Source: Vibrio sp. CB1-14
Lineage (GTDB): Bacteria; Pseudomonadota; Gammaproteobacteria; Enterobacterales; Vibrionaceae
Length of the DNA: 64,000 bases
Direction of reading: 5' to 3'
NCBI RefSeq assembly: GCF_040412085.2
Contig: NZ_CP115920.1
Location: 2,976,001-3,040,000 of the forward strand
Positions 8,708-22,693 of the stretch are shown here, in pieces; positions within the stretch are counted from its first letter, which is position 1, and each line of letters starts with the position of its first letter. Both the position numbers and the translations under genes were made by a program. The notes below the pieces were generated by a model that ran no database searches, was not told where the DNA came from, and saw only the letters and a program-made list of their open reading frames with translations.

Positions 8708-10681
8708 TTATTCTGAGTCTTTCTTAGTTGGCTCAGAAGACACATTTTCAGCCTTAGTTTCTGAGTCCGCGGCTGGCGCTGCTGGCTCTTCTACTTTCGG
8801 TTCTTCAGCTTTAGGCTCAGGCTTCGCCTCTGCCTTTTCTTGCTGGGCTGCGGCTTGGTCAGCCCAACCTGCTGGCTCACGAATATCTGTTTTACGCTCC
8901 ATCAGGTCATCAATTTGACCTGCATCGATGGTCTCGTATTTCACGAGAGCATCTTTCATAGCATGCATAATATCCATGTTGTCTTCTAAGATCTTTCTAG
9001 CGCGATCGTAGTTACGGTCAATCAAGAGACGTACTTCTTCGTCAATCAGCTTAGCCGTTTCACCCGATACGTGTTTCGTTTGAGTAACGCTACGACCTAG
9101 GAATACTTCACCTTCATCTTCTGCGTACAACAAAGGACCCAGTTTTTCAGAGAAGCCCCATTGTGTCACCATCTTACGAGCGATGTCTGTCGCACGTTCG
9201 ATATCATTTGATGCGCCTGTCGATACTTTGTCTTTACCGTAGATAAGTTCTTCAGCTAGACGGCCACCATATAGACTTGAGATCATTGACTCTAGGTGCT
9301 GGCGAGACATGCTTACACGGTCTTGCTCTGGTAAGTACATAGTTACACCCAGCGCACGACCACGTGGAATGATAGATACCTTATACACAGGATCGTGCTC
9401 AGGAACCAAGCGACCAACGATAGCGTGACCCGCTTCGTGGTATGCCGTTGACTCTTTCGTTTCTTCAGACAGAACCATAGAACGGCGCTCTGCACCCATC
9501 ATGATCTTGTCTTTCGCAAGCTCAAACTCAACCATAGATACGTTGCGTTTGTTACCGCGAGCCGCAAATAGTGCTGCTTCGTTAACTAAGTTAGCAAGGT
9601 CTGCACCAGAGAAGCCTGGTGTACCACGTGCGATCAATGATGGCTCTACGTCTGACGCTAGAGGTACTTTACGCATGTGTACTTTCAAGATTTGCTCACG
9701 GCCACGTACATCAGGTAGACCAACCACGACTTGACGGTCAAAACGACCAGGACGAAGTAGAGCTGGGTCAAGTACGTCAGGACGGTTGGTTGCTGCAATA
9801 ACGATGATACCTTCGTTACCTTCGAAACCATCCATCTCAACCAGCATTTGGTTTAGGGTTTGCTCACGCTCATCGTGACCACCACCAACACCAGCGCCAC
9901 GCTGACGGCCTACCGCATCGATTTCATCGATGAAGATGATACAAGGTGCTGCTTTTTTCGCTTGTTCGAACATGTCGCGCACACGAGATGCACCCACACC
10001 CACGAACATTTCTACGAAGTCAGAACCTGAGATAGTAAAGAACGGAACCTTCGCTTCACCAGCAATGGCTTTAGCAAGGAGCGTTTTACCTGTACCAGGA
10101 GGACCAACCATTAGAACACCCGTTGGGATCTTACCGCCCAGTTTCTGGAATCGGCTTGGATCACGTAGATAGTCTACTAGCTCTTTAACGTCCTCTTTTG
10201 CTTCGTCACAACCTGCAACGTCAGCAAACGTGGTCTTAATCTGTTCTTCGCTCATCATGCGAGCTTTACTCTTACCAAACGACATGGCGCCTTTGCCACC
10301 GCCGCCTTGCATCTGGCGCATAAAGAAGATCCAGACACCGATAAGAAGAATCATTGGGAACCACGAGATGAAGATAGTGCCTAGCAGGCTCTGCTCTTCT
10401 GGTGGAGTACCCGAAACTTTTACGTTTTGGTTAATTAGGTCATCAAGAAGTTTTTGATCATAAACCGGCATGTAAGTCACAAAGCGACTGCCACCACCAC
10501 GGCGAGTAAAGGTTATCTCGCTGTCTTTGAATTGAGCTTCCTGAATCTGGCCATTGCCAACTTCCTGTACGAACGTGGTGTAATCTACCGCTCGACCGTT
10601 ACTTTCCCCCGGTCCGAAGCTTTGGAATACCGACATCAACACAACGGCGATGACTAACCACAAAATTAAATTCTTTGCCAT
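8708..10681 (-). CDS. ftsH: ATP-dependent zinc metalloprotease FtsH
   Basis: FtsH is the inner-membrane AAA+ protease that removes damaged membrane proteins and regulators such as LpxC. Two transmembrane segments (about 4-22 and 101-121) flank a small periplasmic domain. Walker A GPPGTGKT is at 193-200, Walker B IIFIDEID near 248-255, and the zinc site HEAGH at 415-419. The C-terminal tail is unusually rich in Glu, Pro, Ala and Lys and is likely disordered. The start [10 protein letters not shown] at 10681 is used; a TTG 9 nt earlier is less likely. rlmE lies upstream, as in other enterics and vibrios. Confidence 0.98.
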
Positions 10682-10787
10682 GTCACTCAAGGTGTCAGCC
10701 TCTCGATAACTAATTGTAATTAAAGGTAGGGTACTACAGTTTTTAGGCTGTAGCTACATTGTTAATTTTGTCTTTGTAAACTAATGT

Positions 10788-11417
10788 TCAGCCTTTGAAG
10801 CCATTAGCTACAATAAACACCTCACGAGAGCGAGCTCTAGATGAGTCCGGCTTGCGAATCTTCACCACTTTGAAGGCTTCACGCACCTGTTTTACGTAAT
10901 CATCAAACCCTTCGCCTTGGAACACTTTCACTACGAAACTGCCGCCAGGGGCTAAAGTTTGATGACACATATCTAATGCTAGTTCAACAAGATACATAGC
11001 TCTAGGTTGATCAACAGATAAGTTTCCAGCCATGTTAGGAGCCATATCTGACATTACTACGTCGACCATATCCGGTTGGATTCTTTCTAGTAGTGCATCA
11101 AGCACCGCTTCTTCACGAAAATCGCCCTGAAGGAAGCTCACACCAGAGATAGGATCCATCGGCAGCAAGTCACAAGCAATCACTTGTCCCTCGTCGCCAA
11201 CGACTTTAGCAGCGTACTGAGACCACCCACCAGGAGCAGCACCAAGGTCAACCACAGTCATCCCAGGTTTCAGTAGCTTATCCTTGTTTTGAATCTCTTC
11301 AATCTTAAAGATAGCACGTGAACGATAGCCTTTTCTTCTGGCCTCATTGGCATATTTATCATCAAAATGCTCTTTTAGCCAACGACCCGAACTGGCCGAA
11401 TGTTTTTGCTTACTCAT
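10788..11417 (-). CDS. rlmE: 23S rRNA 2'-O-methyltransferase RlmE (FtsJ/RrmJ)
   Basis: RlmE methylates the 2'-OH of U2552 in the 23S A loop late in 50S assembly. The 209-residue product has a SAM-binding motif [15 protein letters not shown] near 55-69, an acidic SDMAPN motif, and conserved basic residues in the N-terminal [21 protein letters not shown] segment. It lies upstream of ftsH and is divergent from yhbY. Confidence 0.97.
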
Positions 11418-11529
11418 TCAATTTCCAACTCAATAAGGGCATGCCCTTAGAATAAAGTATAGTCTTCGTCATTAGATGGCGTTAAAATACGACTTTTCAA
11501 CCCTAATAGTAAATAAATTTGGCCGCGTT

Positions 11530-11826
11530 ATGAACCTAAGCACCAAACAAAAGCAGCACCTAAAAGGCCTAGCACACGCACTTAAACCCGTTGTGCTTAT
11601 GGGCGCAAATGGACTAACAGAGGCTGTACTAGCGGAAATCGAAATCGCTCTTGACCACCACGAACTGATTAAAGTGAAAGTGGCGTCAGAAGACCGTGAA
11701 ACTAAACTGCTGATTATCGACGCGATTGTGCGCGAGACAAAAGCAGAAAAAGTTCAGGTTATCGGTAAGACTCTTGTTCTTTACCGTCAGTCAGAGCAAA
11801 AATCGAACTGCCACGCAAGTAATTAG
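11530..11826 (+). CDS. yhbY: YhbY-family RNA-binding protein (CRM domain)
   Basis: This 98-residue protein is almost entirely one CRM domain, a small RNA-binding fold associated with pre-50S ribosomal particles. Conserved blocks are KQKQHLKGLAH, LIKVKVASEDRETK and VQVIGKTLVLYR. The frame is open from 11476, but the family start MNLSTKQKQ is at 11530 and is chosen. It is transcribed away from rlmE and ends in its own terminator. Its exact role in ribosome assembly is not settled. Confidence 0.94.
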   Translation: MNLSTKQKQHLKGLAHALKPVVLMGANGLTEAVLAEIEIALDHHELIKVKVASEDRETKLLIIDAIVRETKAEKVQVIGKTLVLYRQSEQKSNCHASN

Positions 11827-11868
11827 CCCAGCAGTTGGTTTTATAGAAACAATTTGTTTCAAAGTGGG

Positions 11869-11892
11869 AAAGGTCGCTTAGGCGGCCTTTTC
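11869..11892 (+). terminator. Terminator after yhbY
   Basis: The hairpin AAAGGTCGC / GCGGCCTTT (one mismatch, TTAG loop) is followed by TTTTCATTTTT on the plus strand, 43 nt past the yhbY stop. Confidence 0.8.
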
Positions 11893-11949
11893 ATTTTTCT
11901 GACAAGGTGTGTTTGCCAAACGAGGACAACACCACCAACATGCAGGCAC

Positions 11950-11973
11950 AAAAAAAGCCGCCAATTTGGCGAC
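11950..11973 (-). terminator. Terminator after greA
   Basis: The stem GTCGCCAA/TTGGCGGC is followed on the minus strand by seven T residues (11950-11956), 32 nt beyond the greA stop codon. Confidence 0.85.
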
Positions 11974-12004
11974 TTTCTCACAACCTTTCAGTCAACAACG
12001 CAGC

Positions 12005-12478
12005 TTAAACGTAAGCTACTTTGTCGATTTCGAAGTCTTTTTGACCGCCTGGGGTCACGATAGTTACTTCGTCACCTTCCATTTTACCGATAAGGCCACG
12101 AGCGATTGGTGAGCTAACTGAAATACGGCCGGCTTTGATGTTCGCTTCGTCATCACCCACGATTTGGTAAGTTTGCTCAGCATCCGTATCGATATCAATC
12201 AAAGTAACGGTAGAACCAAAGATGATCTTGCCTGTGTTGTCTAGCTTAGTCACGTCAATCACTTGCGCGACAGATAGCTTGTACTCGATATCACGAATTT
12301 GCGCTTCACAGATGCCCTGCTCTTCACGAGCCGCGTGGTACTCTGCGTTTTCTTTTAGGTCACCAAGTTCACGAGCTTCTGCAATTGCTTCAGAAATCTG
12401 TGGACGAAGTTTAAGTAGACGATCTAGCTCTTCACGTAGCTGCTGTTCGCCACGTACAGTCATTGGAACCTTTTCCAT
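12005..12478 (-). CDS. greA: Transcription elongation factor GreA
   Basis: GreA enters the RNA polymerase secondary channel and stimulates cleavage of backtracked RNA. The 157-residue protein has an N-terminal coiled-coil with the family block [21 protein letters not shown] (acidic tip) and a C-terminal FKBP-like domain. The frame stays open to 12673, but [14 protein letters not shown] at 12478, preceded by AGAGG, is the normal start. A 7-bp hairpin (12494-12511) lies just upstream of the ribosome-binding site. It is divergent from dacB, as in E. coli. Confidence 0.97.
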
Positions 12479-12901
12479 TATAACAACCTCTTTTCCAAAG
12501 CACCCTTTGGACAATAAAATCCTACTCAAGCAAGCCTGAGTACAATTTGAAAAATAAACTGGATTAAGCCTAGTGTAATCAATCCGTGGATACAAATCAC
12601 TGTGATTCGGATTCTGAGCTAATAAGGGAACACTTATTGCTGGCACTGGCTGTGGTGCTCTTTCTGATAACAATCAGAGTTATTCTTTTAGAGCAACACA
12701 ACAATATAGCCTAGTTGGCTTTGATTTCGCAAGGTAAACCACGCTGACGACAGTATGAAAGTGTGAGCGAGCTTGCGTCCGTTTCGCTGCACTGTACGAA
12801 GACTATTCGAAGCGACTTTTTTGCGAAAATTTAACGCTTTATCTCGACTTAATAGGTTGTTAGCCTACATTAAAAATTAAGCCCATCCTGATGAATTCGC
12901 T
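12479..12901. promoter_or_regulatory. greA-dacB divergent intergenic region
   Basis: No convincing gene is seen in 423 bp. On the minus strand a weak promoter candidate for greA reads TTGATT (12577-12582) and TTTATT (12553-12558) with 18-bp spacing. The hairpin TCCAAAG-CACC-CTTTGGA (12494-12511) lies in the greA leader 5-10 nt from its ribosome-binding site. The dacB side shows nothing clear. Confidence 0.4.
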
Positions 12902-14341
12902 ATGACAGCCAAACTCCCACTCACCTGTTTACTTATTTTCTCCACTGCGACGTTTGCAGGCGGTGTCGATGCAACCAAACACCTTCCTTACGGAAGCCGC
13001 AGTGCACAGCTCATCGCGCCACTCTCAGCTCCGCAACAGGCGCTAATTGAGAACAATACTGAGCAGTTTTTTCCCCCTGCCAGCACACTAAAAGTCGTTA
13101 CAGCGCTGGCAGCCAAGCTGGCGCTACCTGATAGCTTTCGATTTGAGACCACACTCTATACCTCAGGCAATGACCTCATTATCAAATACTCGGGTGACCC
13201 AACATTTAGCCGTGCTTCACTCACCACAATGCTAAAACAGGCCAAATCAGAGGTGGGAGCTCGATTTAATAATGTTTGGTTGGATGACAGCGTGTTTACG
13301 GGTTACCAGCGCGGTGTTGGCTGGCCTTGGGATATTCTTGGCGTTTGCTATAGCGCACCAGCCTCTGCGATTACGCTTGATGGCAACTGTGTTCAAGGCG
13401 CGTTATACACTAATAAGAATGGTACGACACGCATCAATGTGCCTTCACATCAACCGATTAGTGCGTCGACCTCCGCTAAGAGCGTCTCTAAGGACTACCA
13501 AGAGCAGAGCTATTGCGATCTGCAGCTTGAAGTAAGCCCTAACAATCAATACTCGCTTAGTGGCTGCGCTGTTGAGCGAAAGTCGCCAATACCACTCAAG
13601 TTTGCCGTTTCGTCACCTGAGCAATTTACCGTCGATGTCATCAAATCAGAGCTTTCGCGCATCGGCGTGAGTTTATCCGGTGAAGTCAAAGTGGGTACGC
13701 CAAACATCAAGGGACAAAAGCCGCTGTTTATTCAGCGCTCACGGCCTCTCAATGACTTGCTCGCAGTGATGTTACAAGACTCCAATAACCTGTATGCCGA
13801 TAACATCACTAAAACCCTTGGAATGAGCTATTTTAACCAGCCAGGCTCCTTTATTAATGGCACTGAAGCGATAAAAGCCATTATTAAGCAAAAGGCTGGT
13901 ATCAACCTTGATCTGGCAGTGCTGGAAGATGGCTCTGGACTGTCACGTAATAACCGCGTCACCGCCAGTCAAATGCGCGAGATACTCAGCTACATCCACA
14001 ACAATGACAGCACACTCAAGCTCGCTCGCCTCATGCCCGTTTCTGGCAACAACGGCACGCTAAAGTATCGTTCAAGTATGCGAAAGGCACCGGTTAAAGG
14101 CGCATTAGTGGCAAAAAGTGGCTCTCTGTTTGGCACCTATAACATGATGGGATTTGGTCTTGGCAGTAAAGGGGAGCGTGAAAGCTTGTTTGTCCAATTT
14201 GTCACTGATTACCATCCAAAGAAAGCGACCAACAGCAAACCAGTGGAGTCACCGTTAACACAGTTTGAGAAGGCCTATTATCGCCAAGTAGTTGATTACA
14301 GTTATTCATTGGAGCGCTCAAACAATAAAGCGCAGCCGTAG
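12902..14341 (+). CDS. dacB: D-Ala-D-Ala carboxypeptidase/endopeptidase (PBP4)
   Basis: PBP4 is a periplasmic class C penicillin-binding protein that trims or cleaves peptidoglycan cross-links. The 479-residue product has a signal peptide (about 1-19, cleavage near TFA-GG), then the active-site STLK with Ser at 61, a SNN motif (DSNNLYADN) near 299, and a KSGS motif (KSGSLFGTYN) in place of KTG near 402. The long insert between the first two motifs is normal for this class. It is divergent from greA, and its stop codon lies inside the terminator hairpin. Confidence 0.95.
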   Translation: MTAKLPLTCLLIFSTATFAGGVDATKHLPYGSRSAQLIAPLSAPQQALIENNTEQFFPPASTLKVVTALAAKLALPDSFRFETTLYTSGNDLIIKYSGDPTFSRASLTTMLKQAKSEVGARFNNVWLDDSVFTGYQRGVGWPWDILGVCYSAPASAITLDGNCVQGALYTNKNGTTRINVPSHQPISASTSAKSVSKDYQEQSYCDLQLEVSPNNQYSLSGCAVERKSPIPLKFAVSSPEQFTVDVIKSELSRIGVSLSGEVKVGTPNIKGQKPLFIQRSRPLNDLLAVMLQDSNNLYADNITKTLGMSYFNQPGSFINGTEAIKAIIKQKAGINLDLAVLEDGSGLSRNNRVTASQMREILSYIHNNDSTLKLARLMPVSGNNGTLKYRSSMRKAPVKGALVAKSGSLFGTYNMMGFGLGSKGERESLFVQFVTDYHPKKATNSKPVESPLTQFEKAYYRQVVDYSYSLERSNNKAQP

Positions 14342-14350
14342 CTGCGCTTT
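14327..14350. terminator. Terminator shared by dacB and mgtE
   Basis: AAAGCGCAGC CGTA GCTGCGCTTT is a hairpin with 10-bp arms and A/T on both sides. It overlaps the dacB stop and lies 35 bp from the convergent mgtE stop, so it can serve both strands. Confidence 0.75.
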
Positions 14351-14385
14351 ATCATCGTAATATCGACTTAGTAGATTGTGGTCAA

Positions 14386-15234
14386 TTAAGATAAACCTAG
14401 GAAATGATTGACCACAGTAAAGTAAATCCACATACCTGAGATATCGACAATCGATGCCAATACTGGGCTCACCAGTACTGCAGGATCGAGTTTAAACACA
14501 CGAGCGATGATAGGCAGAACGCCGCCTAACGTTGTCGATACCGTGACCTGAATAAACAGCGCCACCGCTATCGCCATCGCGATAAGGTTGATATCAAAGC
14601 CGCCAGCAGAATTCACATCACCAAAGACGAGAATACGCCCAACCATCACCAGAGCTACTGCGGCAGCCAGACATACCGCGACACGACTCTCCTTCCAGAG
14701 CACCTCTAACCACTGCCTCTTTCGAAGCTCACCGGTTGCCAATGCGCGTATCACAAGAGTTGCGGCCTGGGTACCGGTATTACCACCAGCGGCGGCAATC
14801 ACTGGCATGTAAACGGCCAATAGTACTAATTGGCTCAAGGTATCTTCGTACTGTGCAATGATAAGCCCAGAAACGATGCCTAGCAGTGCTAGGGTAACAA
14901 TCCATCCTATGCGCTGCTTGACGTGTTCGAGTACACCCGTCGTCAAGTAACCACCTGTGGTCTCCGCTTCTGAGTGGATCAACCCCAAATGGTGGGCGTA
15001 CAGTCTTGCGCGTTTATCGTGCCCTTGCAAATCAAGCTCTTCAATCAAGAACTGAACTTGTCCTAAGGCACAGTGCTGCAGCACACCTACCGCTTCATCG
15101 ATCGGCATTACCGTAAGCAGGTTTAACTGCTGATCTGTTTCGTATTGCAGAAATGCTTTCGTTGCAGCACTGATCTCCTCTTCAGAGAAGCGAGGTGCTG
15201 TATTTTCAATATATGTATTGCTCATTACCGTCAT
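14386..15234 (-). CDS. mgtE: Short MgtE-type Mg2+/divalent cation transporter without CBS domains
   Basis: The C-terminal 175 residues form the five-helix MgtE channel domain. Segments start near 109, 132, 182, 214 and 256. Conserved features include the AAGGNTGTQAATLVIRALA loop and an Asp in SIVDISGMWIYF, at the place of the pore Mg-binding Asp. The N-terminal 105 residues resemble part of the cytoplasmic N domain (MPIDEAVGVLQ), but the tandem CBS pair that gates classical MgtE (about 450 residues) is absent. The start ATG at 15234 has GGGAG seven bases upstream. A leader with a small ORF and inverted repeats precedes it. Co2+ or other divalent ions are possible substrates. Confidence 0.88.
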   Translation of the reverse strand: MTVMSNTYIENTAPRFSEEEISAATKAFLQYETDQQLNLLTVMPIDEAVGVLQHCALGQVQFLIEELDLQGHDKRARLYAHHLGLIHSEAETTGGYLTTGVLEHVKQRIGWIVTLALLGIVSGLIIAQYEDTLSQLVLLAVYMPVIAAAGGNTGTQAATLVIRALATGELRKRQWLEVLWKESRVAVCLAAAVALVMVGRILVFGDVNSAGGFDINLIAMAIAVALFIQVTVSTTLGGVLPIIARVFKLDPAVLVSPVLASIVDISGMWIYFTVVNHFLGLS

Positions 15235-15419
15235 GGCGAATCTCCCGATTAGCGTTGGTAACGACCATCAGAAAGTCGGCTCACTAATTGACAAAATAAT
15301 GCCAAAAGCATGACCAGATGCTAAGTACGAAGACATAGTCTAGGCGCACCAATGTCAGGCCATGTACACAGCCAAAACACGCATCAAAAGGCATACTCAT
15401 TGAGTGACTCAATAGTAGT

Positions 15420-15519
15420 AAAGGAGAAAAATATCAGGATGTTATAGAAGGGAAACACACCTACCTCAACGGTAGGAACGAAGATCGCAATTACCGACGC
15501 GAGGCTATTTTTCTCCTTT
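15420..15519 (-). promoter_or_regulatory. Inverted repeats forming a putative attenuator in the mgtE leader
   Basis: The last codons of the leader ORF (15506-15519, minus strand AAAGGAGAAAAATA) are perfectly complementary over 14 bases to 15420-15433. Between them lies a second hairpin CCTACC-GTTGA-GGTAGG (15462-15478). A short hairpin CTACC-AGTAG-GGTAG followed by six T lies just upstream of the leader ORF, and a 15-nt palindrome lies at 15399-15413. The layout suggests competing RNA structures set by ribosome position. This is inference from sequence only. Confidence 0.55.
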
Positions 15520-15549
15520 CATACTAGGAGGATGGTCGGTATTGTTCAT
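15505..15549 (-). CDS. Putative 14-residue leader peptide upstream of mgtE
   Basis: A 14-codon ORF reads MNNTDHPPSMKGEK. It has a good ribosome-binding site, GGAG six bases before its ATG, and ends 270 nt before mgtE. It has a Pro-Pro pair after Asp-His and ends in charged residues. Acidic and proline-rich leader peptides control Mg2+ transporter genes in enterics (MgtL), so a similar role is plausible. No sequence similarity to MgtL beyond composition is claimed. The 3' end of this ORF is one arm of a 14-bp inverted repeat. Confidence 0.5.
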   Translation of the reverse strand: MNNTDHPPSMKGEK

Positions 15550-15675
15550 AGTTATCTCCGAAAAAACTACCCTACTGGTAGCGCGGCGTAGGATACCAAA
15601 ATACGCCCATGAGTAAAGCCCATTTTCCCCTATGGAAATCATTTTTTACGTTTGTTCATATAAGTGTCATATCAC

Positions 15676-17565
15676 ATGTCTCGTTCTACTCTTCTAGCAT
15701 CCTCTCTAATGCTTTGCGCCGGTGTTTTGCTCTCTGGCTGTGATTCTTCAAATAGCGCAGGAAATGCGCCTTCGCAGCCACCAAGAACCAATCGTTGTGA
15801 TGTCGATTGGCAACAAAGCTTCACCGATCTCAACCGAGACTGGACTCGCTCCCAATACGATCACCATTGTGATGAAACAGCGCAACCTGCGCCGCAGTTC
15901 ACGACAAGTTCGGACGCCTCATCCTCGGTTCACTACGCGAATATTTTTGATGGTGAGCGTGAGCGCTATGGTTACAATCCAAGATTCATCCCCGGTCGTC
16001 CCTATTTTGATGCCAATAACCTACCATGGATGATCGTCAACAACATGAATCAGTTCAACGTCGGCGACGGTCAGCCTGGCTATCATCAAGATCCGGTGAC
16101 TCTAGAGAAAACCAATAAGCCGCTACACGCACTGACTTACGATGACCGTGTCTATTCATCTCTATATAGCGACGCCAATCCATGTACCGACTGTGACTCA
16201 TACTTAGTGAGATTGACACCAAACGGTGAATGGATCAGCACATCGCTAAGAGCTATGGAGCAAGAGTTTGGGTTTAGGCAAAACGCCGATGGGCTAGATG
16301 GCTATCGCTACCGTTATATTGAACAGGTGTATTTTCAAGACAATGGTGATGTCTTTTTCAAACTCGACCATGGTGCTATCCGCTATCAGGCACAAACCCA
16401 AACTTGGCAGGGCTATAAAAAGAACTGGTTAGCACAAACTGAAATGGTGGGGAATGGTAGCCAGGCACCGCTATTCATCCGCACATCGAACAACAACAGC
16501 GAATACGCCATCTCTCGCTTAATCGACATTGGTAATGATGAACTCGATTGGCAAGAAGAGACGCTATCACTGCCAATTCACTTAGGCTTGTATCGAGGTA
16601 GCAAGCCCGTCATTTGGGAAGGCAATACCCTACATATCGCAGCCATTAGCTACGATGAGAGTGCACTGAATCGTCTTGATTACAACACGGGGCAATACTA
16701 CGTCCGCTATCAACTTGGCACTGAGCAAGCAGACGTCCTGTTTATGGGCTGGAGCGGCTCAACCTCAGAGGCAACACCGGACGGTCACAACCAACCTATC
16801 CTTTTGCTCGACAGCCAAAAACGATTGCACTTTATTTCTGGTGCTCACAACCACCAGATCTGGCACCGCTACTCGTTAGAGCCAGTAACCAATAACGATT
16901 GGAACAATGGAAATAATTTATGGGGCAACGTAACAGCAAACGACAAATTTTCATACGGACGAGAAACGCCCGTTGGCCGCTATCCAGAAGAGACATCCAG
17001 CGATAACAACGTGAATTACGTCGGTCAGCCAATAGGGCGCTATACCTATGTACACGCAGTTATCCAAAGCGATGACAGCATTTTACTCGTTATGCGCAAC
17101 ACAGCGCCCGCTACAAGTGCACCAAGCGGCTATCGACTTGAATGGATAGCCGGTACGCCACAAACAAATGGTCAATACCAGTGGCAAGACAAAGGTGTCA
17201 TCGTGATGCCAAACTGGCAGCAGTATTCAAACTACACTCAAAAACTGCATCAGGATAAACGCGGGAATCTATACCTGTTGTATACCTATGAGATCCAAAA
17301 CTTTAACGATGATACTTGGTTTAACCAGATGCTGCGTGTTTCAAAATCAAGTCAACAAGAGTGTGAGCTGCTGTCTGATGCCAAGGATTGCATTCATGTG
17401 GTTAGCGAGCACTATCGCCGCTGGCCTAACGAAATACTGGCCGGTAGTCCAAGTCGTTACAGTCAACAATTCCAGCACCACCCAGTATTGCTGGTCAGCT
17501 CCGATAAGGGTAATACCTGGCGCTTAGCTACCACAGAAGCACTGCTGTCCCAGCAAACCAAATAG
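15676..17565 (+). CDS. Predicted lipoprotein, BNR/beta-propeller-like, unknown function
   Basis: I do not recognise a specific family member. The product has 629 residues from MSRSTLLASS with a lipoprotein signal ending LLSGC (Cys 22). The rest is rich in Trp, Tyr, Asn and Asp, with repeated short strands of the type seen in BNR/Asp-box beta-propellers, and one clear Asp-box SSDKGNTW near the C-terminus. A CTDC pair and a TYDDRVYSS motif occur in the first third. Such proteins often bind or cleave polysaccharides, but no catalytic residues can be named. An in-frame GTG at 15664 is an alternative start. It is a single gene, divergent from mgtE, ending in a strong terminator. Confidence 0.7.
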   Translation: MSRSTLLASSLMLCAGVLLSGCDSSNSAGNAPSQPPRTNRCDVDWQQSFTDLNRDWTRSQYDHHCDETAQPAPQFTTSSDASSSVHYANIFDGERERYGYNPRFIPGRPYFDANNLPWMIVNNMNQFNVGDGQPGYHQDPVTLEKTNKPLHALTYDDRVYSSLYSDANPCTDCDSYLVRLTPNGEWISTSLRAMEQEFGFRQNADGLDGYRYRYIEQVYFQDNGDVFFKLDHGAIRYQAQTQTWQGYKKNWLAQTEMVGNGSQAPLFIRTSNNNSEYAISRLIDIGNDELDWQEETLSLPIHLGLYRGSKPVIWEGNTLHIAAISYDESALNRLDYNTGQYYVRYQLGTEQADVLFMGWSGSTSEATPDGHNQPILLLDSQKRLHFISGAHNHQIWHRYSLEPVTNNDWNNGNNLWGNVTANDKFSYGRETPVGRYPEETSSDNNVNYVGQPIGRYTYVHAVIQSDDSILLVMRNTAPATSAPSGYRLEWIAGTPQTNGQYQWQDKGVIVMPNWQQYSNYTQKLHQDKRGNLYLLYTYEIQNFNDDTWFNQMLRVSKSSQQECELLSDAKDCIHVVSEHYRRWPNEILAGSPSRYSQQFQHHPVLLVSSDKGNTWRLATTEALLSQQTK

Positions 17566-17592
17566 CTAGAAACTCAATAATGAGTATCGATC

Positions 17593-17623
17593 AAAAACGC
17601 CGCGATTAAAACGCGGCGTTTTT
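17593..17623. terminator. Bidirectional terminator (propeller lipoprotein / ispH)
   Basis: AAAAACGCCGCG / CGCGGCGTTTTT is a perfect 12-bp stem with A- and T-runs, lying between two convergent genes, so it serves both. Confidence 0.9.
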
Positions 17624-17645
17624 ATTCAATCGATTGGATTCAGGG

Positions 17646-18602
17646 TTAATCCACCACTTTAACTTGAAGCTCTCTTGGTACCTCAAAGAACATGTTTTCT
17701 TCTCGGCCTAACACTTCCTCAACATCATCAGCGCCCAGCGCTTTGATTCTATCTATGATTTGATTGACTAGCTCTTCTGGCGCGGATGCACCGGCTGTCA
17801 CGCCAACCAAACCTTTTCCTTCAAACCACTCGGCTTCAATCAAATCAGGCGTGTCTGTCAGGTATGCCGGTGTGCCCAGCTTTTCCGCAAGCTCTTTAAG
17901 GCGCGTTGAATTCGAAGAGTTGGTTGAGCCGACGACAACCATAACATCCACGGCACCGGCCAGTTCACGAACCGCATCTTGGCGGTTTTGCGTTGCATAG
18001 CAGATATCGTCTTTACGAGGACCTTGGATCTCAGGGAACACTTCGCGAAGCTTATCAATCACATCAGCGGTTTCATCCACAGATAGCGTGGTTTGACTCA
18101 CGTAATGAAGATTACTTGGATCTTTGACCTCAAGCGTTAGAACATCTTCTGGACGCTCAACAAGGTACATGCCACCAGTCTCACTTGAGTACTGACCCAT
18201 TGTCCCTTCCACCTCTGGGTGACCCGCATGACCGATAAGTACCACTTCCATATTACGGCGACTCGCACGAGCCACTTCCATATGTACTTTGGTTACCAGC
18301 GGACAAGTGGCATCAAATACCGTCAGTTCACGCGCTTTCGCTTCTTTACGAACCGCTTGAGACACACCGTGAGCTGAAAAGATCACAATGTTGTCATCAG
18401 GCACTTCACTCAGTTCCTCAACAAAGATCGCACCACGCTGCTTAAGACCTTCAACCACAAAACGGTTATGTACCACTTCATGACGAACATAGATTGGCGG
18501 TTGATACATCTCAAGCGCGCGCTCAACAATACTGATCGCTCGGTCTACACCCGCACAAAAGCCACGTGGGTTAGCTAGTTTAATTTTCATTTCATTACTC
18601 AT
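17646..18602 (-). CDS. ispH: 4-hydroxy-3-methylbut-2-enyl diphosphate reductase
   Basis: IspH is the [4Fe-4S] enzyme of the last MEP-pathway step, making IPP and DMAPP. The 318-residue protein has the three cluster cysteines in [27 protein letters not shown] and [11 protein letters not shown], and the conserved AHGVS and SxNSSNSxRL motifs. The start [14 protein letters not shown] at 18602 is used; the internal Met 5 at 18590 is an equally plausible start. fkpB lies 47 nt upstream, the usual fkpB-ispH pair. Confidence 0.97.
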
Positions 18603-18649
18603 TGAGGAACCGCTATTACTTATCGTATTAATCTAGGTCTGTCTTGTCG

Positions 18650-19081
18650 TTATTCTACTTCGAGAATTTCAACTTCAAAGGTGACATCTTGCCCTGCCAA
18701 CGGGTGATTAAAGTCTACCGTTACCGAATCACCCGCAATGTCTGTGATGATACCCGGGATCTCCATGCCATCAGGACCTGAGAAGGCCATTATTGTACCG
18801 ACTTCAACTTCAGAGTCACCCACAAACTTTGCGCGATCCATATGGTGAACATTGTCAGGGTTTGGCATACCGAACGCATCCGCGGCCTTTAACTCAATCG
18901 CTTTGTTGTCACCGGATGACAAACCCACCAAGCACTTTTCGAAATTCTCACTTAAACTGCCGTCACCAATAATAAATTTCGCAGGCTTACCCATATTGTG
19001 GGTGCTATCTGCGACCGAGCCATCGCTCAGCTTGATGGTGAAATGTAGGGTGACAGCGCTATCTTTGGAAATGATGCTCAC
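18650..19081 (-). CDS. fkpB: FKBP-type peptidyl-prolyl isomerase SlpA/FkpB
   Basis: This is a cytoplasmic FKBP-family prolyl isomerase of 143 residues. The split FKBP fold is recognisable from VTLHFTIKLSDGSVADST and FIIGDGSLSENFEKCLVG, and the inserted IF chaperone domain holds AFGMPNPDNVHHMDRAKF. It ends in VDFNHPLAGQDVTFEVEILEV, the SlyD/SlpA signature. It sits between lspA and ispH; a terminator after lspA suggests fkpB-ispH has its own promoter here. Confidence 0.95.
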   Translation of the reverse strand: MSIISKDSAVTLHFTIKLSDGSVADSTHNMGKPAKFIIGDGSLSENFEKCLVGLSSGDNKAIELKAADAFGMPNPDNVHHMDRAKFVGDSEVEVGTIMAFSGPDGMEIPGIITDIAGDSVTVDFNHPLAGQDVTFEVEILEVE

Positions 19082-19158
19082 GTTACGGCTTCCTTGTGTT
19101 ATTGAGTCTGTGTTGATTGATTACGCACAGTAGCTCTTTATCATTTAGCTTGTTATAT

Positions 19159-19192
19159 AAAAAAGCGCCGTGCATATCAACGCACAGCGCTT
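19159..19192 (-). terminator. Terminator after lspA
   Basis: AAGCGC(T)GTGC / GCAC(G)GCGCTT is a hairpin with a T-rich run on the minus strand (19159-19164), 20 nt past the lspA stop. Confidence 0.8.
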
Positions 19193-19212
19193 AAGGTTAT
19201 TCGTTATCTGCG

Positions 19213-19716
19213 CTACTTTTGCTCTTTATTGCGAAAGCTATCGATAATAATCATCGCCGCACCAATACAGATCGCCATGTCTGCTAGGTTGAAGGCGGGC
19301 CAATGATAGTTACCCCAGTAGAAATCCAAGTAGTCGACAACAAAGCCATGAACAACGCGATCAAAGACATTACCCACTGCGCCGCCAATGATCATCGCGT
19401 AAGCAATGTTGTTCCACTTCTCTTTTGCCGGAAGCTTGCTCATCCAATACGTTAGCATGCCAGTGACGACAAACGCGATACCGGTAAACAGCCAGCGCTG
19501 CCAGCCTGCTTGGTCACTCAAAAAGCTGAATGCGGCACCGTAATTATGGACATAAAGCAGATTGAAAAATGGCAAGATCTCAATTCGATTCGCCCAGCCG
19601 TAGCCCATGTTATCCATGACCACGAGTTTGATGCTGATATCAGCAATAAAAATCACTACCGCTAGCCATAGCCAGCGCACACCTGATTGTCGAAATGTGA
19701 TTGCCGTTTCGCTCAT
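19213..19716 (-). CDS. lspA: Lipoprotein signal peptidase (signal peptidase II)
   Basis: LspA cleaves lipoprotein signal peptides after diacylglyceryl transfer by Lgt. The 167-residue protein has four hydrophobic segments and the two conserved regions with the catalytic aspartates, [18 protein letters not shown] and [12 protein letters not shown]. It lies downstream of ileS as in many bacteria, but a terminator-like hairpin (19784-19813) separates the two. Confidence 0.97.
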
Positions 19717-19783
19717 CTGTTTCCTTTCTCGCTACCTTTGGTAGCAAACATTCAATGAATTATATATTCAATCAGTTAGCTGA

Positions 19784-19813
19784 TAAAAACAACCCCAGTA
19801 AAAACTGGGGCTG
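19784..19813 (-). terminator. Terminator-like hairpin after ileS
   Basis: CCCCAGT AAAA ACTGGGG (19793-19810) is followed on the minus strand by TTGTTTTTATC. It lies 34 nt beyond the ileS stop and upstream of lspA. Confidence 0.8.
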
Positions 19814-19846
19814 TTAAATCTTTCAAAAGTTCCGGTTAGCTTACCA

Positions 19847-22693
19847 TTAAGCGAACTTACGAACTTCGCCTTCACCGTCTACGTTCGATACGCAGCGACC
19901 ACAAATCTTTTCGTGACCAGCAATCGTACCAACGTCCGGAGTGTGGTGCCAACAACGGTCACACTTCTCGTTTTCAGTAGCGGCTACTTCAACGAATAGG
20001 CCTTCTAGCTCTGTCGCTTTCGCTGTATCTGTCTTCTCAGACATTGGCTTAACCATTGCTGCAGACGTAATAAGAACAAAACGTAGCTCATCTTCTAGCT
20101 TGCCAAGCTTCGCAATTAGCGCATCATCAGCAAACAGTGTGATTTCAGCCTGTAGTGCACCACCAATGGTTTTCTCACTACGCGCCGCTTCTAGCTGCTT
20201 GTTCACTGCATCACGAACCGTTTGGATTTCAGCCCAGAACTCGTTGTTTAGCTCTTCGCCTTCAGCAAGACCGAATAGACCTTCGAACCATTCACCCGTG
20301 AAGACAAACTTATCACGGCTTTCTCCATTTGGAAGAGAAGCTGGCATTTCGTTCCAGATTTCGTCAGCAGTGAACGACATGATAGGTGCCATCCAACGAA
20401 CAAGTGCTTCAACGATGTAGTAAAGCGCTGTCTGACAGCTGCGCTGTGCATGGCCGCCCAGTTTCGCTGTGTACTGACGGTCTTTGATAACGTCTAGATA
20501 GAATGAGCCCATTTCGATAGAGCAGAACTGCATTAGACGCTGAGTCACGCCGTGCGTGTTGTACTCTTCGTACGCTTTTACAATCTCTTCTTGAGCCGCT
20601 AGTGCACGACCTACCGCCCAACGATCCAATGCCACCATTTCTTCTGCTGGTACCAGGTCAGTTTCTGGGTTGAAACCGTTTAGGTTTGCCAGGAAGAAGC
20701 GAGCTGTGTTACGGATACGACGGTAAGCATCTGCAGAGCGCTTAAGGATTTCATCAGAAACCGCGACTTCACCTGTGTAGTCAGTCGATGCTACCCATAG
20801 ACGCAGAATGTCTGCACCTAGCTTGTTAGTCACATCTTTTGGCGCAACAACGTTACCGATTGACTTAGACATCTTACGGCCGTGACCATCAACCACGAAG
20901 CCGTGCGTTAGCACTTGCTTGTATGGTGCTTCGTCTTTCATCGCGATAGATGAAATTAGCGAAGACTGGAACCAACCACGGTGTTGGTCAGAACCTTCTA
21001 GATAAAGGTCTGCACTGTTGCCATTGAACTCTTCACGAGAATCAACAACAGAGTAGTGGGTCACACCAGAATCGAACCAAACATCTAGTGTATCCAGAAC
21101 TTTCTCGTACTGGCCAGCTTCGTCGCCCAGTAGGTCTGCAGTTTCTACATCCCACCAAGCTTGAATGCCTTTCTCTTCTACTAGCTGAGCCACTTTTTCA
21201 ATCAGCTCTAGCGAGTTTGGATGAAGTTCTGCCGTCTCTTTGTGAACAAACAGAGCGATTGGCACACCCCAAGTACGTTGACGAGAGATACACCACTCAG
21301 GGCGACCTTCAATCATACCTTCGATACGGCTTTGACCCCACTCAGGCATCCACTCAACACCCTTGATTGACTCTAGTGCTTTAGCACGTAGTCCCGCTTG
21401 ATCCATAGATACGAACCACTGAGGTGTTGCACGGAAGATGATTGGCGTCTTATGGCGCCAGCAGTGTGGGTAGCTGTGCTCGTAAGCGTGATGATGAAGT
21501 AGCGCACCTTTTTCTTTCAGTACTTCTACAACGGCATCGTTAGCTTTAAATACGTGCTGACCCGCGAATAGCTCAGTATCAGGCAAGTAAACGCCGTTTG
21601 AACCTACTGGGTTAGCGACTTCTAGATCGTATTTTTGACCGACCGCGAAGTCTTCTTGACCATGGCCAGGTGCTGTATGAACCACACCAGTACCTGATTC
21701 AGTCGTTACGTGATCGCCTAGGATCGCCGGAACGGTGAAGTCGTAGAATGGGTGGTTGAACTGAGAAAGCTCTAGATCGGCACCTTTCGCAAAACCAAGG
21801 TTGTGGAAGTGCTCGATACCAGCACGATCCATCACGTCTTTCGCTAGCTCAGAAGCCACGATAATACGCTCTGGGTTGTCGCCTTCAGTTTGGATAAGTA
21901 CGTACTCAAGATCGTCACGTAGACATACCGCACGGTTAGCAGGTAGTGTCCACGGTGTTGTTGTCCAGATAACAATTGAGATATCGCCCTGGCCTTCATG
22001 ACCTTCGCTTAGCTCAAATTTAGACAAAAGCGCAGCTTCGTCGGCCGCTTTAAAGCGTACGTCGATAGAAGGAGAAACTTTATCTTTGTACTCAACTTCT
22101 GCTTCAGCAAGTGCCGAGCCACAGTCTGTACACCAGTGAACTGGTTTAAAGCCTTTTAGTAGGTGGCCTTTGTCTGCGATCTTACCTAGTGCACGAATGA
22201 TGTTTGCTTCAGTTGCAAAGTCCATCGTGCGGTAAGGCTTGTCCCACTCTCCAAGAATACCTAGACGCTTGAAGCTCTCTTTTTGACCTTCAACCTGGCC
22301 TGCCGCGTACTGGCGACACTTCTCACGGAATTCAGCCGCGGTCACTTTTTGGCCAGGCTTACCCACTTTCTTCTCTACCATCAGTTCGATAGGTAGACCG
22401 TGGCAATCCCAACCTGGAATATAGGGTGAATCAAAACCTGAAAGTGTTTTGGATTTAATAATAATGTCTTTAAGAATCTTGTTTAGAGCGTGACCAATGT
22501 GAATGTCACCATTCGCATATGGAGGACCATCGTGTAGAACGAAGGATTTTTTGCCTTTTTTAGCTTTACGGATCTCACCGTAAAGATCTTCTTTATACCA
22601 ACGCTTAAGCATTTCTGGCTCACGATTGGCCAGGTTGCCGCGCATTGGAAACCCTGTTTCAGGTAGGTTCAGGGTATCTTTATACTCACTCAT
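19847..22693 (-). CDS. ileS: Isoleucyl-tRNA synthetase
   Basis: Class I synthetase that charges tRNA-Ile and edits valine. The 948-residue protein has the HIGH motif ([16 protein letters not shown] near 58-73), the CP1 editing domain with [12 protein letters not shown], the KMSKS motif ([12 protein letters not shown] near 605), and the C-terminal zinc-binding cysteines CDRCWHH and CGRC. ribF lies 62 nt upstream and lspA downstream, the conserved order. Confidence 0.98.

Follow-up and report, generated by a model that had tools for sequence, protein, structure and literature searches.

How might expression of a magnesium transporter that lacks a recognisable sensor domain be controlled? The question is raised by mgtE of Vibrio sp. 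CB1-14, which lies on the minus strand at 14386..15234 of the 64,000-nucleotide stretch analysed here (the window). Its 282-residue product carries the MgtE membrane domain PF01769 at residues 143-274 (E 5.7e-32), the sole Pfam domain up to E 10, and aligns with TIGR00400 at positions 271-448 only; neither search recognised a CBS domain, the usual protein Mg2+ sensor of MgtE, and the earlier note's picture of a transporter without its own CBS sensor holds good in that only the membrane domain is recognised. Relatives in the PDB found by sequence are MgtE entries, matched over the membrane part, and a structure model of low confidence (pLDDT 67) also matches MgtE entries. The protein is 100% identical to that of V. 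maritimus strain CAIM 1455. Judged by its residue number 430, the V. cholerae mgtE product mentioned in the available part of PMC10127744 is longer; an MgtE gene of P. damselae is reported to change with salinity in the available part of PMC10308900, and mgtE is absent from that of PMC8632094.

The leader ahead of mgtE has a single match in the source genome. It had been proposed to encode a short peptide whose last codons form part of a long stem, the whole acting as an attenuator. The open reading frame (uORF) is present exactly as described, at 15505..15549 on the minus strand (MNNTDHPPSMKGEK), with its start codon 315 nt from mgtE; all further leader features named below lie on the same strand. 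Its Shine-Dalgarno sequence, GGAG, is at 15556..15559; in 122 of 126 leaders GGAG precedes the start codon by six bases. Upstream, a promoter-like TTTACT-16-TATCCT (15590..15617) was read by eye and is weak, a consensus scan having failed to report it; if it is used, the transcript might start just before hairpin H1, described below.

Comparison across vibrios, suggested in the earlier note as a way of finding conserved peptide codons, revealed them: Asp5-x-Pro7-Pro8 recurs in 76 of 77 mgtE loci from named genomes, within a uORF of the form M[NS][NT][TI]D[HN]PP.., the locus without it being L070. Eighteen of 20 further loci fetched upstream of mgtE matches carry the uORF as well. These mgtE-anchored sets are the free test of the motif: the pattern used for the later collection of leaders demanded GAC at codon 5, and subsequently also CC.CC at codons 7-8, so that the presence of Asp5, Pro7 and Pro8 in 126/126 leaders is largely by construction.

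By pattern, the uORF occurs in 183 of 296 Vibrionaceae genomes, at most once in each, and the reversed control pattern in 0 of the 296. MgtE protein matches at E 1e-40 or better were found in 188 of them and both protein match and pattern in 173, a location upstream of mgtE being confirmed in the loci that were read rather than in each of the 173 genomes. The 15 protein-positive genomes without the pattern comprise ten with a uORF that escaped the pattern (GUG as start codon in five, other changes in five), two with a diverged uORF, MQNVDFPPSLNGIGNN, without clear Shine-Dalgarno sequence or mgtE-start block, one with a degenerate uORF having CTG in place of ATG (L126), and two (G123 and G230) in which the protein match is a longer relative, with frames of 457 and 424 aa. 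An Asp-x-Pro-Pro uORF accompanies the MgtE relative in 185 of the 186 genomes that have it, two of these uORFs being diverged; variants included, such uORFs are found in 195 of the 296 genomes.

Several loci were dropped before the counts that follow: L125 (another MgtE locus of G148, with no leader), L070 and L126 (one lineage, degenerate uORF), L158 and L159 (diverged) and L196 (frame broken). One count omits L129, which duplicates L073, and upstream regions were read for 13 of the 30 loci of one later set. The 126 leaders amount to 121 distinct sequences, and the set of 127 leaders used in places excludes the window's own copy. L070 and L126 (Vibrio sp. S9_S30), in which the uORF start codon is lost to CTG and the H5/H6 block described below is missing, provide a natural comparison.

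The start codon is ATG in 121 and GTG in five of the 126 leaders. In the codon table all four Pro codons are used for Pro8 and two of them for Pro7; variation is seen at residues 2-4 and 6, and beyond Ser9 the peptide is unconstrained. Its length is 11-19 codons; in L030 and L069 a frameshift ends it at codon 11. Judged by the kept Shine-Dalgarno sequence and start codon, and by Asp and Pro-Pro kept with synonymous changes, the uORF is evidently translated. Because these residues persist despite synonymous changes, and because the two diverged uORFs (L158 and L159) keep Asp-Phe-Pro-Pro-Ser with other codons, the peptide seems to be selected for Asp-x-Pro-Pro, the bases of codons 2-6 apparently being held by RNA pairing as well. 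G230 is a contrary case: its RNA elements are kept and its uORF frame no longer reads Asp-x-Pro-Pro.

RNA structure in the leader was evaluated on an alignment of 68 dereplicated leaders, in which four named helices, H1-H4, make up 29 pairs. Together these are paired in 85.7% of cells, as against 37.8-54.2% in slid controls; they show 146 double-change cells, as against 47.5 (sd 7.5) after shuffling, and a covariation score of 0.310, as against 0.206 (sd 0.007), with 0 of 500 shuffled sets scoring as high. In the hairpins H1 and H3 every one of the 11 pairs shows double changes. H1 (CTACC-AGTAG-GGTAG, 15567..15581; 84% of cells paired, 5/5 pairs changed on both sides in the 68 leaders) is the 5-bp hairpin that had been noticed, together with six T, before the ORF. 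The hairpin is conserved but the T-run is not, at least six T within the 13 bases before the Shine-Dalgarno sequence being found in only 15 of 127 other leaders, which speaks against a terminator at this place. H3 (CCTACC-GTTGA-GGTAGG, 15460..15476; 91% of cells paired, double changes in 6/6 pairs) is the 6-bp hairpin that had been seen inside the loop of the long stem, though placed two bases off, at 15462-15478. A 15-nt palindrome at 15399..15413, also pointed out before, does exist, but recurs in only 2 of 127 other leaders, both from V. maritimus, and is not part of the conserved device. Left to itself, RNAalifold recovers H1 and H3, along with three base pairs between the uORF Shine-Dalgarno sequence and the uORF's Pro codons; neither H2 nor H4 is among its predictions.

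Both of these last helices are built from the uORF itself. H2, which the earlier note missed, joins uORF codons 2-5 (15535..15544) to GTCGGTAATTG just after the uORF stop (15488..15498). Taken alone (uORF bases 6-14 with bases after the stop) it is paired in 89.5% of cells, as against 7.9-44.4% when slid, and has 10 double-change cells, as against 2.4 after shuffling, distributed over 3 of its 9 pairs and mainly from A-U to G-C; a separate count on 50 leaders gave 405 of 445 cells paired, slid controls giving 91-197 of 438-445. H4 is the long stem already described: the last uORF codons (15506..15519) are, in the window, a perfect 14-nt complement of the pyrimidine-rich TATTTTTCTCCTTT at 15420..15433. 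This inverted repeat is not due to chance, since 0 of 2000 single-base shuffles of 15235-15620 yielded one as long. Across the alignment H4 alone is paired in 79.2% of cells, as against 60.2-70.9% when slid, and at least eight perfect consecutive pairs are present in 71 of 127 leaders, as against 9 of 127 when the downstream part is shuffled. Compensatory changes, which it had been suggested should be sought in this stem, do not rise above the slid controls (covariation score 0.242, controls 0.172-0.281). A strand pairs better with its own partner than with a swapped one in 45 of 50 leaders for H2 and in 38 of 50 for H4, and on permutation of partners among 12 hand-picked leaders the observed pairing energy was reached 197 times in 20000 for H2 and 531 times in 20000 for H4. 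H4 is thus best described as purine-pyrimidine complementarity that has been well conserved, with few signs of compensation base by base.

Taken as the best duplex in each leader, the two helices cross in all 68 leaders, and in a nested fold they therefore exclude each other; their mean penalties in the 5' domain are similar, at 3.2 (H2) and 3.8 kcal/mol (H4). What was proposed as a leader-stem attenuator is conserved as to its peptide and its long-stem complementarity. No conserved intrinsic terminator was seen between uORF and mgtE, nor any conserved T-run at the terminator-like sites of the window (counted for H1, judged by eye for the others), and an attenuator in the strict sense is for that reason unproven.

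A further element overlooked before is a nearly invariant block of the form GATGGTCGTTACC-(variable insert)-GCYAATCGGGAGATTCGCC-ATG, at 15236-15269 in the window; in 101 of 126 leaders the 19 bases that immediately precede mgtE have one of just two forms. Part of the block, CGTTACC (15257..15263), can form helix H6 with GGTAATG (15223..15229), which comprises the last base of mgtE codon 2 together with codons 3 and 4: 7/7 pairs are possible in 113 of 124 leaders, and codon 3 is GTA in 123 of 126. The outer H6 pair is C-G in 108, U-G in 9 and U-A in 5 of the 124 leaders, and 2 leave it unpaired. U-A was seen in two unrelated groups, four genomes of genus g8 on the one hand and G707 on the other. 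On 15 distinct block types, before later leaders were added, neither H5 nor H6 was better than shuffled sequence, so that covariation in H6 rests on this one pair. Between the left strand of H6 and the start codon a hairpin, H7 (GC-T-AATC-GGGA-GATT-C-GC, 15236..15253; -3.3 kcal/mol), has the mgtE Shine-Dalgarno sequence GGGAG at its loop.

The remaining helix, H5, would connect this block to the uORF. Its left strand, CGACCATC (15531..15538), is an 8-nt complement of GATGGTCG (15262..15269) ahead of mgtE, all 8 pairs being possible in 110 of 124 leaders and the core 5 in 120 of 124; uORF CGACCAUC and GAUGGUCG are perfectly complementary. An 8-nt complement arises in 0.7% of shuffled consensus blocks. 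No compensatory change was found in H5 among the 124 leaders, and pairing between the uORF and the mgtE-start block is plausible on the strength of the complementarity. The H5/H6 counts leave out three block-less leaders (two distinct), the V. penaeicida-like L067 (identical to L127) and L128, in which the block is lost.

Some variants and discarded candidates in this region may be recorded. In four GUG-start leaders of genus g8 (L154, L156, L157 and L160) H7 is lost and the mgtE Shine-Dalgarno region altered, and the outer H6 pair is kept through compensatory change. A second, downstream uORF (MVVT...) was rejected because 1-nt differences in the length of the block disrupt its frame, and GGCGAUCUCC of the leader was rejected as an anti-Shine-Dalgarno sequence of mgtE, being missing from several clades, both as judged by eye.

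To relate these structures to mgtE expression we calculated, with ViennaRNA, the cost of opening the mgtE start, which is 10.5 kcal/mol in the free leader. A ribosome on the uORF raises this cost, by 1.95 when at the start codon, 2.19 at Pro-Pro and 1.57 at the stop, the increase being seen in 59, 64 and 55 of 68 leaders, respectively. Blocking uORF bases 12-19 adds 1.82 and blocking bases 6-11 subtracts 0.23; random blocks of 8 and 30 bases add 0.40 and 0.81. With H2 enforced the start costs 12.85 kcal/mol to open, as against 10.30 with H4, and the H2 value is the higher in 65 of 68 leaders; the energy model forbids pseudoknots, and so excludes H2 together with H5 by construction. An earlier measure, the unpaired probability of the mgtE start in 93 leaders (values below), revealed no effect of this kind. 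From these folding energies we infer that H4 with H5 would be the open state and that H2, or a uORF filled with ribosomes, would be the closed one.

The reading that we favour, to which we would give a probability of about 45%, is that the mgtE leader is a ribosome-gated RNA switch, in which drop-off at Asp-x-Pro-Pro lets H4 win and turns mgtE on. With ribosomes reading through the uORF, codons 4-7 would be either covered or afterwards captured by the short-range H2, leaving the mgtE start closed. Drop-off or a stop at Asp-x-Pro-Pro, at low Mg2+ as for MgtL, would free the uORF tail and allow H4 to form; H2 would thereby be excluded, and uORF codons 4-7 could pair with the complementary strand next to H6 to make H5. 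Once beside H6, H5 would loosen the mgtE start and mgtE translation would go up. As H4 covers a C-rich, G-poor tract, an added effect of Rho on transcription is possible. Ribosome progress versus drop-off would make a coherent control because H4 excludes H2, which is itself built from the uORF's first codons, and the structure at the mgtE start points to translation initiation as the output. That Mg2+ is the signal, and what sign the control has, we infer.

The same uORF could instead work through transcription, as with MgtL and CorL: its translation would keep the right strand of H4 open as a Rho site and drop-off would allow H4 to cover that site, the structure at the mgtE start merely tuning translation. 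This logic is reported for mgtA and corA in the available parts of PMC11282234 and PMC11552253, and the Vibrio leaders have some of the expected features, a surplus of C over G of about 0.2 per base being seen 50-90 nt beyond the stop across the 68 leaders, their richest 60-nt window averaging 29% C and 10% G, and the terminator-like sites lacking a conserved T-run, as noted above. The C-over-G peak of 0.193 lies, however, within one sd of that of shuffled leaders (0.153, sd 0.052), and Rho attenuation leaves no role for H6 and the conserved mgtE-start block. Rho termination in the leader is possible and weakly indicated; as an account of the whole leader it appears to us doubtful, although it survives better than the alternatives that follow.

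Control of opposite sign, by translational attenuation of the Erm type, would make H5 stacked on H6 the inhibitory structure, and a ribosome stalled at Pro-Pro would cover the uORF codons and switch mgtE on, in response perhaps to EF-P or to the supply of proline. Conservation of Pro-Pro is in keeping with this idea, as is part of an earlier accessibility measure on 93 leaders, in which a ribosome at Pro-Pro (codons 3-12 covered) moves the mean unpaired probability of the AUG from 0.52 to 0.57 and raises the medians of both AUG and Shine-Dalgarno sequence, the latter from 0.71 to 0.78. Mean Shine-Dalgarno accessibility, on the other hand, is unchanged (0.64 free, 0.63 with the ribosome), and the opening energies point the opposite way, covering of the uORF raising the cost in 55-64 of 68 leaders. 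Stalling as the activating event is accordingly judged unlikely.

Recognition of GAUGGUCGUUACC..GCCAAUCGGGAGAUUCGCC by a trans factor, be it small RNA, protein or ligand, with the uORF as a stabiliser only, would explain why the block is conserved beyond what pairing alone needs, and why G230 keeps the GGUGGUCGUUACC part although its peptide frame is broken. But Rfam gave no match at the leader, up to E 5 in window positions 10000-20000 or E 1 in six relatives, and synonymous changes have left the start codon, Asp and Pro-Pro in place even in the block-less L158 and L159, which makes a trans factor quite improbable. Least probable of all is a non-regulatory 5' untranslated sequence conserved for mRNA stability or high basal translation, since a conserved uORF overlapping competing pairings would be unexpected in a passive leader.

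A ribosome-gated switch of the kind we favour would probably work like an MgtL/MgtQ-type leader, to go by the resemblances, yet the leader matches no described RNA family tested; the models of the M-box and of the Enteric Mg sensor / mgtA leader RNA family of Rfam gave no match in window positions 10000-20000 or in six relatives. The M-box (ykoK), an Mg2+ riboswitch and regulator of mgtE in other bacteria, is a metal-binding aptamer that needs no uORF; it resembles the present leader in preceding an Mg2+ transporter gene and differs from it in that the Vibrio leader has no M-box match. A mycobacterial M-box case is treated in PMC12810186 (partial text). No description of the present leader appeared among the literature matches listed, subscription papers lying outside the search.

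In E. coli and Salmonella, translation through the mgtL uORF is thought to switch the transporter gene mgtA off, and drop-off to switch it on (PMC11282234, PMC11552253; partial texts). Like mgtL-mgtA, the Vibrio leader places ahead of an Mg2+ transporter a short uORF whose early codons include acidic and Pro residues, and it probably has alternative structures as well. Unlike MgtL, which has more such residues (EPDP), its peptide has one Asp and Pro-Pro; moreover, MgtE is not the P-type MgtA, no Rfam relation was found, a role of Rho is unproven in Vibrio, and Vibrio mgtE has a structured start with a strand complementary to the uORF. For corL-corA, efficient corL translation lowers corA, two exclusive structures are formed and Rho termination is supported (PMC11552253, partial text); a conserved N-terminal uORF part is found here too, with two probably exclusive structures, whereas the transporter there is CorA and the support for Rho termination applies there and not to Vibrio mgtE. 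At mgtQ-mgtB of Salmonella, acidic codons destabilise the ribosome, and exchange between stems 1:2/3:4 and 2:3 releases the transporter's ribosome-binding site (PMC8092293, partial text). That output is translational, as proposed for Vibrio mgtE, but mgtQ sits between mgtC and mgtB and has a single Pro and a different sequence. A start that opens on drop-off would fit the MgtL/CorL rule, under which a well-translated uORF means less transporter, and would fit mgtQ too, where the output is translational. Enteric mgtA and, in related forms, corA and mgtB already provide examples of leader peptides that gauge Mg2+ through ribosome instability. If our reading is true, the Vibrio leader, placed before a different transporter class in about two thirds of the sampled Vibrionaceae genomes, would count as evidence for ribosome drop-off as a recurrent magnesium sensor, and would suggest how an MgtE without CBS domains is kept in check.

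Outside the family the leader is scarce in the samples searched. Of 369 genomes of the class, none but the window's own has the exact mgtE-start pattern, the pattern being strict and no more than three other members of the order being in the sample. When 295 genomes of the order were searched with a covariance model of the 5' domain, matches came from 16 members of the window's genus and from one genome of a different family (G707, locus L194; E 1.3e-11). The latter has a uORF, MNDSDHPPSIKVGNNP, the mgtE-start block and the MgtE gene. Since the leader is complete there and ten relatives of G707 gave no match to the model, the distribution suggests that G707 acquired leader and MgtE by horizontal transfer.

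In ten genomes, seven of genus g10 (L131-L137; apparently Salinivibrio) and three of the window's genus (L181, L182 and L183), an intact leader precedes a short gene of 93-131 aa that corresponds to the N-terminal part of MgtE, in most cases with a single membrane helix; G230 (L196, also of the window's genus) has another N-terminal-only gene, behind its frame-broken uORF. The ten genomes with an intact leader make up the difference between the 185 counted with the MgtE relative and the total of 195. As intact leaders precede mgtE genes without a membrane domain, the leader appears to outlive the transport domain. The N-terminal part of six g10 copies has dN of 0.07-0.28 and dS of 0.45-2.6, and because dN is well below dS the N-domain-only protein of this genus is, on substitution rates, under purifying selection. 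These observations bear on a wider proposition, which we put forward tentatively and hold to be less probable than the switch itself: that the leaders constitute an Mg2+-sensing family of the Vibrionaceae, unrelated in sequence to mgtL and corL, in which the first peptide codons open a transporter start 200-380 nt downstream, drop-off handing these codons from H2 to the mgtE start, and in which the leader would go with the N-terminal domain of MgtE rather than with transport, because the N-domain-only Salinivibrio protein shares it.

Two observations concern the surroundings of the leader. Upstream of it in L118, at 679-760 on the minus strand, there is a sub-threshold match to the Rfam Vibrio antisense RNA V_AS5 (40.6 bits, gathering 96). 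In the window, a BNR-repeat gene with a lipoprotein-like start, as read by eye, lies on the plus strand at 15664-17565, divergent to the mgtE leader and between it and ispH (17646-18602); since in V. mediterranei (L006) ispH ends some 460 nt upstream of mgtE, the BNR-repeat gene appears to have been inserted in the window's lineage.
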